The notes beneath the pieces are model-generated. The model ran no database searches and was not told the origin of the DNA. It saw only the letters and a list, made by a program, of their open reading frames with translations. From Brachybacterium vulturis (GTDB taxonomy: Bacteria; Actinomycetota; Actinomycetes; Actinomycetales; Dermabacteraceae), in the NCBI RefSeq assembly GCF_002407185.1, contig NZ_CP023563.1, forward strand, positions 2,418,001 to 2,482,000: a DNA stretch of 64,000 nucleotides, in the 5' to 3' direction. Position 1 is the first letter of the stretch; each line of letters starts with the position of its first letter. Made by a program: the position numbers and the translations under genes. Of the stretch, positions 12,492 through 59,663 are shown one piece after another.

Positions 12492-13064
12492 GTGACCGCA
12501 CAGCAGCCCTCCAGCCAGGGCGCTTCGTCGCGCCCCACCACCCCGGCGGGGACTCCCGCCTCACGCCGCGGCTCGCGATGGGGCTCGCTGGGGCCCGTCC
12601 TGGTCGTCGTGCTGGGCCTGGTCGAGCTCACGATCCTGGTGCTCATCGGGATCAGCACCAGCCTGTGGTGGGCGGTGCTGGCCATCGCCGTCGGGTGGGT
12701 GATCGGGATCGCTCTGCTGGTCGCCGCCGGTCAGCAGTCGTTCGTGCGCCTGCGCTCCCTGCTGCGGGCGGTGAGCGGCCGCGGCGACGTCCAGGACCAC
12801 CTCTCGCGGCCCGCGTTCACCCTGGTGGCCGCGCTGTTCTTCTTCTTCCCCGGCATCCTCACCGATCTCATCGGGGTCGTGCTGCTGCTGACCCCCGTCC
12901 AGCGGCGCTCCGTGAAGGCGATGGGCCTGGGCAGCGGCGCCGCGGGGGCACGGACCGTGCTCTACCGCCGCTCCGGCACCGGCGTGATCGACGGTGAGAT
13001 CATCCTCGACAACGAGCCGCGAGGCCGGGGCGAGGACTCCCCGCCCACCCTGATCCAGGACTGA
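12492..13064 (+). CDS. fxsA: FxsA family membrane protein
   Basis: 190 residues from GTG with AGGAAGGGAG upstream. The Pro/Ser-rich N-terminus is cytoplasmic. Membrane helices follow (VVVLGLVELTILVLIGISTS and TLVAALFFFFPGILTDLIGVVLLL), with the FxsA signature FPGILTDLIG and LLTPVQRR. FxsA was named for suppressing phage F exclusion in E. coli; its function is unknown in actinobacteria. A -10-like TAGCCT (12453-12458) overlaps the ppm1 stop, so the gene may have its own promoter. Confidence 0.87.
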   Translation: MTAQQPSSQGASSRPTTPAGTPASRRGSRWGSLGPVLVVVLGLVELTILVLIGISTSLWWAVLAIAVGWVIGIALLVAAGQQSFVRLRSLLRAVSGRGDVQDHLSRPAFTLVAALFFFFPGILTDLIGVVLLLTPVQRRSVKAMGLGSGAAGARTVLYRRSGTGVIDGEIILDNEPRGRGEDSPPTLIQD

Positions 13065-13085
13065 TCACCGGGCGCGTCCCACAGC

Positions 13086-13131
13086 ACGAGCGCCCCCGCT
13101 CCGCCGAGAGGCGGCAGCGGGGGCGCTGTTC
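13086..13131. terminator. Bidirectional terminator between fxsA and rbpA
   Basis: GCGCCCCCGCT and AGCGGGGGCGC pair, extended by CCGCC/GGCGG with small bulges around a GAGA loop. The structure lies between two convergent genes and could end both transcripts. Confidence 0.65.
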
Positions 13132-13142
13132 GGAGGAGCTGG

Positions 13143-13493
13143 TCAGAGGTTGCGGCGCTGATGGAGCTTGCCGGCGCGCAGCAGCTCGAGGCGCTGGTCC
13201 AGGAGCACCTGGAGGTCCTCCTCGCTGCGACGCTCGAGCAGCATGTCCCAGTGGGTGCGCACGGGCTTGCCGACCTTCGCCTCCGGCCGCTCGTGGTCAC
13301 GCAGCAGCGCGGAGGCGTTGCAGCGGCACACCCAGGTGGCGGGGACGTCGGCCTCGACCGAGAAGGGGAGGACGATGGTGTGGCCGTTGGGGCAGTCGTA
13401 GACGGCCTCCTGGCGCGGTGCGGCGAGGACGCCCTCGTCGGTCTCCATGGAGAGGGAGCCCAGTCGGGTGCCTCGCAGGCTGCGGCTGTTCAT
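13143..13493 (-). CDS. rbpA: RNA polymerase-binding protein RbpA
   Basis: 116 residues. The N-terminus RSLRGTRLGSLSMETDEGV matches the RbpA core-binding tail. A zinc-type domain follows (YDCPNGHTIVLPF and WVCRCNA), then the sigma-interacting helix region (VRTHWDMLLERRSEEDL). RbpA stabilises open complexes of the principal sigma factor. I chose the ATG at 13493 because it gives the family N-terminus and has AGGAAG upstream; a longer frame to 13631 is only leader. A SigR/SigH-like promoter lies about 107 nt upstream. Confidence 0.95.
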   Translation of the reverse strand: MNSRSLRGTRLGSLSMETDEGVLAAPRQEAVYDCPNGHTIVLPFSVEADVPATWVCRCNASALLRDHERPEAKVGKPVRTHWDMLLERRSEEDLQVLLDQRLELLRAGKLHQRRNL

Positions 13494-13599
13494 ACGGTTC
13501 TCGCTTCCTGCCGGGGGTGGTGTCGGACGGCGGGCCGTCCGGTGGGATCTGTGGCGGGTGAGGTCTGTGGGTGGCGCGTCGGCGATACCCGGTGCTGTC

Positions 13600-13626
13600 A
13601 ACGCCGGCGGGACCGATTCTGTTCCC
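13600..13626 (-). promoter_or_regulatory. SigR/SigH-type promoter upstream of rbpA
   Basis: Minus strand reads GGGAAC (13621-13626), an 18-nt spacer, then GTT (13600-13602). This is the consensus of thiol-stress ECF sigma factors (SigR of Streptomyces, SigH of mycobacteria). rbpA is a known SigR target in Streptomyces. The leader would be about 100 nt. The match is seen directly; the sigma factor is inferred. Confidence 0.75.
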
Positions 13627-13661
13627 GGCACCGGTGACCGGTCCCGGCAGAGCGCTGGTTC

Positions 13662-14474
13662 TCAGGCGCCGTCGAGCAGCTGTGAGAGCAGATCGACACG
13701 ATTGGTGATGATACCATCCACGCCCTTGACCAGCAGCTCCTGCATGGTCCGCGGGTCATCGACGGTCCACACATGCACCTCGCAGCCCGCCCGGTGAGCG
13801 GCGGCGATGTTGGCCATGGTGACGATCTGCACACCGCGGTGGGCCTCGGGGACCTGGAGCGCGCCGTAGGGGGCGAGGAGCCGGGAGATCACGGCCTGCG
13901 GGGCCTCGACCGCACGGGCCGCGAGGAAGCTGCCGATCGCTCCGCGCGAGGGACTGCGCATCGCGGTGACGCCGGTGGCGGCGTGGAGTGTCGCGAGGGT
14001 CTTGCGGACCACATCCCCGTCGAAGCCGGCCACGCACACCCGGTCGGCGCTGCGGGTGCGGCTGATCGCCGCGACCGCGGGGCCGATGGCCGAGGCGGCC
14101 TTGATGTCGATGTTGACCGGCACGTCGCCGAAGGTGCCCAGGACGTCCTCGAGCATGGCCAGCGGCTCGTCGCCGGCCAGCCGCACGGAGCCCGCCTCGT
14201 GAGCGCTGAGCTCAGCGATCCGGCGAGGATCCCCGGCGATGCGTCGGAGGTCCTCGTCATGGACCGCGAGGGCGAGCCCGTCACGCGTGGCGCGGGTGTC
14301 GGTCTCGAGCATGTCGGCGCCGGCCCGCAGCGCGTCCTCGAAGGCGCGCAGGGTGTTCTCGGCCCCGTCGGTCGCGAGCCCGCGATGGGCGATGCGACGC
14401 GGGCGGGGGCCGGGGAGGAACCGGGAGCGGGACGCCCGTCCTCGCTCAGGGCCGCTGCTCGTCGATGAGTGCAT
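13662..14474 (-). CDS. Glycerophosphodiester phosphodiesterase
   Basis: 270 residues. The GDPD signature is RRIAHRGLATDGAENT near residue 27 with the second histidine in LAVHDEDLRR. Metal ligand positions appear in LETDTR and NIDIKA. The C-terminus has VHVWTVDDPRTMQELL and GVDGIITNRVD, typical of the family. It hydrolyses glycerophosphodiesters to glycerol-3-phosphate and an alcohol. There is no signal peptide, so it is probably cytoplasmic. The start overlaps the end of the SURF1-like gene by 29 nt, so the two are one transcription unit. Confidence 0.92.
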   Translation of the reverse strand: MHSSTSSGPERGRASRSRFLPGPRPRRIAHRGLATDGAENTLRAFEDALRAGADMLETDTRATRDGLALAVHDEDLRRIAGDPRRIAELSAHEAGSVRLAGDEPLAMLEDVLGTFGDVPVNIDIKAASAIGPAVAAISRTRSADRVCVAGFDGDVVRKTLATLHAATGVTAMRSPSRGAIGSFLAARAVEAPQAVISRLLAPYGALQVPEAHRGVQIVTMANIAAAHRAGCEVHVWTVDDPRTMQELLVKGVDGIITNRVDLLSQLLDGA

Positions 14475-15402
14475 CTTCTTCCTCCTCGTCCTGGCCCCGG
14501 CGCCGGGTGCGGACGGCGCGTCGGGGACGATGATCTGCGGTGCGACGGGCGGGCCGCGCCGCGGGCGGGGGGCCGTCCTCGCCGGGGGCCGTGCCGGGGC
14601 CGCCGCGCGGCGAGGTGTCCGCTTCTGCGGCCTGCTGCTCCTCGGCCGCGAGGTCCTGGAACTGGCGGCGGGTGCGGTAGATCAGCGCGGCGGGGAAGAA
14701 GAGCGCGAAGACCCACCACTGGAACGCATAGGACAGGTGCGGGCCGAGCGAGGTGTCGGGATAGGGCAGCGCGGTGGGCCGCACCCCGGGCGGTTCCTCT
14801 GCGGCCAGCTCCCCGTAGGCGCCGGTGACCAGCTCCTGGGTCGATATGCCCATCAGCTCGGCGGATTGGCGGGGGTTGACCGAATGGGTCTGCCCCGGCG
14901 GTGGTTCGCGGTCCAGCACCGGCTCGGCGGGGCGCAGCCGGACGGTGACGGTCATCTCGCCCTCGGGCACCGGGGCCGGATCGGCCGGCTGGGAGGTGCC
15001 GCTGACCGAGGGCACCCAGCCGCGCACCACCAGCACGGTGGCGCCGTCCTGGGCACGGAAGGGCACCAGCTGCCAGAAGCCCACCCGGCCCGAGAGCTGC
15101 CGGTTGCGCACGTAGAGCACGCAGTCATCGCTCGTGCAGTAGCTGCCGTGCAGCTCGACCGGGGTCCATTCGTCGCTCACGGGCAGCGGAGTCTCGATGT
15201 CCGGCAGCACCTCGTCGAGGGCCACGGGGGCGGCGTCGTAGTGGGACTCGATCACCGCGGCCTGCTCCGCACGGTCCTCATAGCGGCCGAACTGCCACAG
15301 GCCCAGCAGCACGCAGGCCGCTGCGAGCACCAGCACGGCGACCAGACCCAGCAGGGTCTCGCGGCTCAGCAGGATCTCGCGACGGGAGGAGGTCGTCCTC
15401 AT
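14446..15402 (-). CDS. SURF1-like membrane protein
   Basis: 318 residues. An N-terminal helix (LLGLVAVLVLAAACVLLGLW) is followed by the SURF1 hallmark LGLWQFGRYEDRAEQ. The periplasmic domain has VRNRQLSGRVGFWQLVPF and VLVVRGWVPS. A second helix (YAFQWWVFALFFPAALIY) is near the C-terminus. SURF1 proteins assist cytochrome aa3 oxidase assembly. The tail is unusually long, Pro/Arg-rich then acidic. The ATG at 15402 overlaps the upstream stop (ATGA), which decides the start. Confidence 0.88.
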   Translation of the reverse strand: MRTTSSRREILLSRETLLGLVAVLVLAAACVLLGLWQFGRYEDRAEQAAVIESHYDAAPVALDEVLPDIETPLPVSDEWTPVELHGSYCTSDDCVLYVRNRQLSGRVGFWQLVPFRAQDGATVLVVRGWVPSVSGTSQPADPAPVPEGEMTVTVRLRPAEPVLDREPPPGQTHSVNPRQSAELMGISTQELVTGAYGELAAEEPPGVRPTALPYPDTSLGPHLSYAFQWWVFALFFPAALIYRTRRQFQDLAAEEQQAAEADTSPRGGPGTAPGEDGPPPAARPARRTADHRPRRAVRTRRRGQDEEEEDALIDEQRP

Positions 15403-58575: not shown

Positions 58576-58670
58576 TACGGCGCCAGGACGGGAATAGGGC
58601 TCCCTGCGGCCTCGTTGCACTGGGAGTCACCGTTCGCCGCGCACTGCGGCCCGTCGCCCTGGAGGTCATG

Positions 58671-59663
58671 ATGGATCCGACGACCCTGTTCAGCTACGAG
58701 CGCCACGTCGACTCGCGCTCCCTGCACGGGCGGACCCTGCTCGTCACCCTCGGCGCGTACAGCGACGCGGGCGATGCCCAGCAGCTGATCGACGACCAGC
58801 TGCTGAACTCGCTGTCCAGCCGTGTCATCGGCCGTCTGGACATGGACCAGGTCTACGACTACGCCGGGCGTCGCCCGGAGGTGACCCTCCAGCTGGACCA
58901 TTTCGCCGACTATGAGAAGCCGGAGATCCTGCTGCACGAGGTCTCCGCGGCCGACGGTGAGACGTTCTTCCTGCTCACCGGGCCGGAGCCGTCGTTCCAG
59001 TGGGAGCGGGTGGCCAGCGCTCTGCAGATCGTGGTCGAACAGCTCGGCATCGAGCGGACCCTGCTGCTGCAGGGATTCCCGGCACCGGTCCCCCACACGC
59101 GCGAGCTGCCGGTGACGCGGTTCGCCGGGGATCCCGACTCGATCAGCGTGCGCCGCACGATGCCGGGCTCGTTCCGGCTGCGCGCCCCGTTCACCGCGCT
59201 GCTGACGATGCGGCTGGCCGAGAGGGGTCACGAGGTGGTGGGGCTGACGGTGCACGTCCCCCAGTACCTGCACGAGATGACCTATCCCGACGCCGCGCTC
59301 GCGCTGCTCGGCGCGATCACCGAGGAGCATGGACCGCAGCTGCCGATCGAGTCGCTGGAGTCCCAGGCCGGACCGGTGCGCGAGGCGGTCGCCGCCCAGA
59401 TCGATGCGCAGCCGGCGCTGCAGGAGATGGTCAGCGGCCTCGAGGCCCGCTTCGACCGGATGATCACCTCGGGCGCGGGCGCGGAGGTCCCCACCGCCGA
59501 GGCGATCGGGGCCGAGGTCGAGCAGTACCTCGCGAGCTTCGAGCAGGAGGACCGGGACAAGGGCACCGGCGGCCCGGACGCCGAGCCTCCTGAGCCCGGC
59601 GCTCCGGACGGCGACTGCGACGACGGTCCGGGCCCCGACGGTCGCGCCCCGACCAGCGACTGA
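58671..59663 (+). CDS. PAC2 family protein (proteasome assembly chaperone-like)
   Basis: 330 residues. PAC2 features: LLVTLGAYSDAGDAQQLIDD, FFLLTGPEPSFQWERVASAL, LLLQGFPAPVPHTR and VPQYLHEMTYPDAALALLGA. The C-terminus is long and acidic. Actinobacterial PAC2 proteins are common, but their link to the proteasome is not established. I chose the second of two adjacent ATGs (58671) because GGAGG lies 5 nt before it. Confidence 0.85.
   Translation: MDPTTLFSYERHVDSRSLHGRTLLVTLGAYSDAGDAQQLIDDQLLNSLSSRVIGRLDMDQVYDYAGRRPEVTLQLDHFADYEKPEILLHEVSAADGETFFLLTGPEPSFQWERVASALQIVVEQLGIERTLLLQGFPAPVPHTRELPVTRFAGDPDSISVRRTMPGSFRLRAPFTALLTMRLAERGHEVVGLTVHVPQYLHEMTYPDAALALLGAITEEHGPQLPIESLESQAGPVREAVAAQIDAQPALQEMVSGLEARFDRMITSGAGAEVPTAEAIGAEVEQYLASFEQEDRDKGTGGPDAEPPEPGAPDGDCDDGPGPDGRAPTSD

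Follow-up and report, generated by a model that had tools for sequence, protein, structure and literature searches.

The region analysed in this study, referred to as the window, is a stretch of 64,000 nucleotides from the genome of Brachybacterium vulturis, in which the gene for the RNA polymerase-binding protein RbpA is preceded, on the same strand, by a gene for a glycerophosphodiester phosphodiesterase (GDPD). Together with one further gene of the window that is taken up below, the features considered are as follows.

13143..13493, minus strand: rbpA, RNA polymerase-binding protein, 116 aa (PF13397, 137.1 bits; gathering score 25)
13504..13509, minus strand: ribosome-binding site AGGAAG of rbpA, within a conserved CAGGAAGCGAGAACCG block
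13524..13541, minus strand: hairpin CGGACGG-N4-CCGTCCG in the rbpA 5' UTR, between the predicted SigR promoter and the ribosome-binding site
13590..13594, minus strand: predicted SigR-dependent transcription start, from promoter geometry (about 7-10 nt past the -10 element)
13600..13602, minus strand: GTT, -10 element of the SigR-type promoter, separated from the -35 element by 18 nt; its G and final T are the same in 35/35 genus members
13621..13626, minus strand: GGGAAC, -35 element of the SigR-type promoter; GGAA invariant in 35/35 genus members
13662..14474, minus strand: GDPD gene, upstream of rbpA (PF03009, 120.3 bits)
13708..13716, minus strand: candidate extended -10 element TGGTATCAT within the GDPD gene, close to its 3' end, spanning the codons GAT GGT ATC AT
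58668-59663, plus strand: PAC2-family gene (PF09754, 155 bits)

RbpA is encoded by 35 of the 36 genomes of the genus, and the genus set used here consists of the 35 members with readable rbpA upstream DNA, G005 having been left out as it gave no rbpA match. A divergent second RbpA paralogue lies at 2540970-2541275 (plus strand) of the genome contig (PF13397, 60.4 bits); it is present in only some species of the genus, and no SigR motif was found in its own locus or in six loci of relatives. About half of the genus shows the leader hairpin, and some of the base changes in it are compensatory. In 18 leaders, which were chosen by eye from the 35 genus members for showing the hairpin, the pairing is well kept (93.7% of cells pair) but the covariation is weak, with two pairs changed on both sides and 7 of 500 shuffles reaching the score, and a riboregulatory role of the hairpin is at most a possibility.

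The SigR-type motif upstream of rbpA

The initial annotation had described GGGAAC, 18 nt and GTT on the minus strand in front of rbpA, and a pattern search of the window DNA confirmed an exact match, GGGAACAGAATCGGTCCCGCCGGCGTT, at 13600-13626, which corresponds to positions -133 to -107 relative to the rbpA ATG. Within the window the pattern GGGAAY-N18-GTT is matched twice, while shuffles give an expectation of 0.14; the second exact match, GGGAAT-N18-GTT at 58590-58616 (plus strand), is located 51 nt ahead of the PAC2-family gene. Over the whole 3.80-Mb single-contig genome, no clear enrichment of the bare GGGAAY/GTT pattern was seen. The spacings N17, N18 and N19 gave 21, 17 and 12 matches, respectively, the spacings 10-15 a background of 76 matches (12.7 per spacing) and the spacings 16-30 a total of 203 (13.5 per spacing). 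Genome-wide counting was therefore dropped as a proof, and a single match without conservation proves nothing. A gene start just downstream was found for 9 of the 17 N18 matches and for 5 of 42 wrong-spacing matches (Fisher p 0.0017), where the control comprises 40 stretches with spacings 10-15 that hold 42 of the 76 genome matches, the N18 match ahead of the PAC2-family gene was scored as a non-start because the start of that gene escaped the crude gene caller, and three of the 17 N18 matches are copies of one repeated element.

It is positional conservation, together with position, that decides the matter, and on these grounds the rbpA motif is more than a chance match. The boxes and the N18 spacing expected of a thiol-stress sigma promoter, the class to which the site had been assigned in the initial annotation, are kept in all 35 Brachybacterium rbpA upstream regions, of which 28 carry a perfect motif and 7 match 8 of the 9 box positions. 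When the spacing is set to another value between 8 and 30, at most 1 of the 35 matches the same boxes. When the 35 regions are aligned, the information peaks on the boxes and the spacer is mostly variable; the -10 element reads as a nearly invariant C-GTT-G, with C before GTT in 34 of the 35. Of 22 genomes from other families of the order, 17 have GGAAY-N18-GTT no more than 200 nt from rbpA, and 2 more have an N19 version. Among the other named loci the count is 70 of 76, these being the best 80 of 586 loci less Brachybacterium, rich in a few genera and possibly overlapping with the 22 order genomes. Outside the genus, each of the remaining spacings between 8 and 30 gives 0-3 matches. The compared species are related, and these conservation counts are not independent of each other. 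Many Streptosporangiales loci (L073-L112) have GGTATC or GGTACC in the rbpA spacer just before GTT, which is perhaps an overlapping second element.

The SigR/SigH homologue that the initial annotation had presupposed is encoded in the genome. A profile search identified SigR at 2046707-2047258 (plus strand) of the genome contig (TIGR02947, 293.9 bits, cut-off 251.55) and, adjacent to it, RsrA at 2047420-2047620 (plus strand; TIGR03988, 66.4 bits, cut-off 62.5), the translation of which contains HTDDCPEC. The sigR gene itself is preceded by GGGAAC-N18-GTT at 2046436, 55 nt ahead of its open reading frame, and among 12 other Brachybacterium sigR loci the strict motif is found in 10 and a relaxed motif in an 11th, while no motif was seen upstream of sigR in G034. 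For the thioredoxin gene trxA (2795636-2796052 of the genome contig), the motif is present in 30 of 30 Brachybacterium loci (L343-L372; 27 strict), in each case at position -36 or -35 relative to the ATG. This places the transcription start at or beside the start codon, and the trxA transcript is therefore likely to be leaderless. Further exact N18 matches precede dnaK and genes for an aldo-keto reductase, an FMN reductase and a ClgR-like regulator, the last with a score below the cut-off of its model. The genome scan proposed in the initial annotation thus gives exact N18 motifs ahead of sigR, thioredoxin, dnaK, the ClgR-like regulator and rbpA.

The thioredoxin reductase gene trxB is a classic SigR target. 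As a positive control it failed in Brachybacterium, where none of 21 loci carries the motif; among other genomes of the order 6 of 9 have one (L234-L263 for the two groups together). The Brachybacterium regulon is therefore not simply the Streptomyces one. The carD gene of this genome has an exact N18 motif 257 nt upstream, but with this genome counted, only 4 of 28 relatives share it (G008 and G018, in which the start was not found, were left out). It was set aside as a SigR target and is probably a chance match; carD thus serves as a negative control, illustrating that a lone match can arise by chance. A GGGAAT-N17-GTT sequence was also observed at 2758785-2758810 (minus strand) of the genome contig, about 115 nt ahead of a principal-type sigma factor gene.

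Two other explanations for the motif in front of rbpA have to be weighed. That GC-rich DNA produced it by chance could be argued from the genome-wide figures, 17 matches over a background of about 13 per spacing; this is contradicted by the conservation throughout the 35 genus members and in other families at a single spacing, and we regard the probability of such a coincidence as close to nil. It could also be proposed that the promoter is real and chiefly serves another ECF sigma factor, for instance one of the SigE type. GGAAC-N18-GTT is common to several ECF groups, and the genome contains four TIGR02947 matches, one above the cut-off and three weaker, the latter belonging to ECF factors that may share the specificity of SigR. 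In mycobacteria, moreover, a passage in PMC6344877 places rbpA under sigma-E. Against this, sigR and trxA are preceded by the same motif with the same spacing, which is the signature of an autoregulated SigR regulon, and Streptomyces rbpA is transcribed directly by SigR in vitro according to PMC9205884, in keeping with the statement of the initial annotation that rbpA is a SigR target in that genus. We consider a main role of another ECF factor improbable. Judged from the motif and its conservation, the site at 13600-13626 is very probably a genuine SigR promoter and rbpA a core SigR target in this Brachybacterium.

A candidate promoter within the GDPD gene

Near its end, the GDPD gene encodes an Asp-Gly pair as GAT GGT, both of them minority codons in this gene (GAT 22%, GGT 13%), and it is through this codon choice that TGGTATCAT arises at 13708-13716. 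The sequence GATGGTAT is kept in 32 of 37 GDPD genes, a set made up of the 35 genus members together with L033 and L036, without L035 and L041, which belong to the same species as G012 and G007. G010 also keeps the extended -10 element, farther out than the 300 nt scanned. Among 100 conserved GDPD columns, those with the most A/T-ending codons are the Asp and Gly of GATGGTAT and an Asn four codons further on, and when the columns were shuffled the observed clustering of A/T-ending codons was reached in 91 of 20000 trials. The bases of the extended -10 consensus (TG-N-TATNNT) are fixed and the free wobble position varies, giving TGGTATCAT, TGGTATTAT and TGGTATCGT. The sequence TGNTATNNT is common by itself, with 2 occurrences in the window and 1.36 expected, so that conservation alone speaks for the element in the GDPD gene, where selection on the motif bases was found. 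In five species (G016, G025, G029, G035 and G031), which have GACGGC instead, the element is lost, and this speaks against a promoter; four of these species form one clade in the GDPD tree. Two GDPD paralogues of the same genome were tried as a codon control, and the motif pattern matched neither of them.

In the Dermabacteraceae genome TAE3-ERU5 (L036), rbpA overlaps the end of the GDPD gene and no SigR motif is left, even though the genome encodes SigR; TGGTATCGT is retained upstream of rbpA. In other families with a GDPD gene near rbpA, the motif was found in 6 loci; 5 of these encode the matching Asp by GAC, and GATGGTAT occurs in none of those GDPD genes. Among the loci looked at, the GDPD-embedded second promoter would be restricted to the Dermabacteraceae.

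The initial annotation did not mention a second, constitutive promoter for rbpA, which we think is likely to exist; the extended -10 element TGGTATCAT in the GDPD gene is, on balance, a plausible candidate for this basal promoter. A rather doubtful alternative, which nevertheless carries some weight, is that the GATGGTATCATCACCAATCG block is no promoter at all and owes its conservation to the binding of a regulator, to an element of the mRNA or to codon use particular to the lineage. A scan of 13050-14500 for sigma-70 -10/-35 elements and terminators returned nothing, which leaves the GDPD -10 element with no recognisable -35, and this favours the alternative, as do the enrichment of the AAT just downstream and some inverted symmetry seen by eye (GGT-N6-ACC). 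The ACC is, however, broken in some species, and the near-invariant wobble bases are precisely the T of the TG and the first T of TATNNT, whereas the free position differs in its wobble base between species. A promoter is also favoured by the carD gene of the same genus, which has an extended -10 element, TGNTANNNT, at -34 or -33 in 28 of 28 Brachybacterium loci (set L273-L302).

Proposed dual control of rbpA and comparison with known systems

According to the mechanism that we propose, rbpA would be served by a constitutive promoter within the GDPD gene and by an inducible SigR promoter between the two genes. Basal RbpA would most likely come from the extended -10 promoter in the GDPD 3' end. 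Upon thiol oxidation, the zinc anti-sigma factor RsrA would be inactivated and SigR freed, which would then transcribe rbpA and thioredoxin along with the sigR operon; the housekeeping RNA polymerase would be supported by the additional RbpA. Disulfide stress as the inducer, and with it the induction of rbpA in this organism, is assumed here by analogy, and the use of both sites in transcription and the role of the second promoter are likewise inferred. The SigR holoenzyme is not known to be a client of RbpA. More tentatively, both rbpA promoters might bypass RbpA: according to PMC7403470, mycobacterial RNA polymerase cannot do without RbpA at -10/-35 promoters but does not need it at those of the extended -10 type, from which it would follow that neither rbpA promoter needs RbpA. 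A cell short of RbpA could then still make it, which would solve a start-up problem and create a homeostat. CarD, the partner factor of RbpA, would likewise be made from an extended -10 promoter.

In Streptomyces, rbpA is already known to be controlled by SigR, and the work of Kim et al. from 2012 on SigR orthologues in actinomycetes may well include rbpA as a conserved target. In PMC5742136, RbpA is named among the SigR-activated products and the upkeep of HrdB under thiol stress is stated to need Streptomyces SigR. The Brachybacterium system resembles the SigR-RsrA regulon of Streptomyces coelicolor in the gene, the box type, the spacing, the SigR-RsrA pair, the autoregulatory motif of sigR and thioredoxin; it differs in that trxB lacks the motif and in that the neighbour of rbpA is a GDPD gene with a likely embedded second promoter. 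The SigH and SigE factors of mycobacteria and corynebacteria use GGAAC/GTT-type promoters, and their stress control is similar in relying on a related ECF sigma factor and a zinc anti-sigma factor, whereas mycobacterial rbpA has been reported under sigma-E (PMC6344877). The TG-N-TATNNT in the GDPD gene resembles primary-sigma extended -10 promoters, such as the one before carD of the genus, and departs from the usual ones in that the candidate sits inside a coding sequence. A literature search by title returned nothing on SigR of Brachybacterium, nor on rbpA together with GDPD or Brachybacterium. What is added here is the breadth of conservation of the rbpA motif and the candidate promoter hidden in the GDPD gene.

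These findings extend the SigR-rbpA link of Streptomyces to Brachybacterium and, by conservation, to most of the actinomycete families looked at. Given this breadth, the group as a whole seems to have, at the core of its stress response, a link between SigR and the supply of RbpA. The extended -10 element in the GDPD gene, if real, would be a simple way for an RNA polymerase factor to escape self-dependence in its own synthesis.
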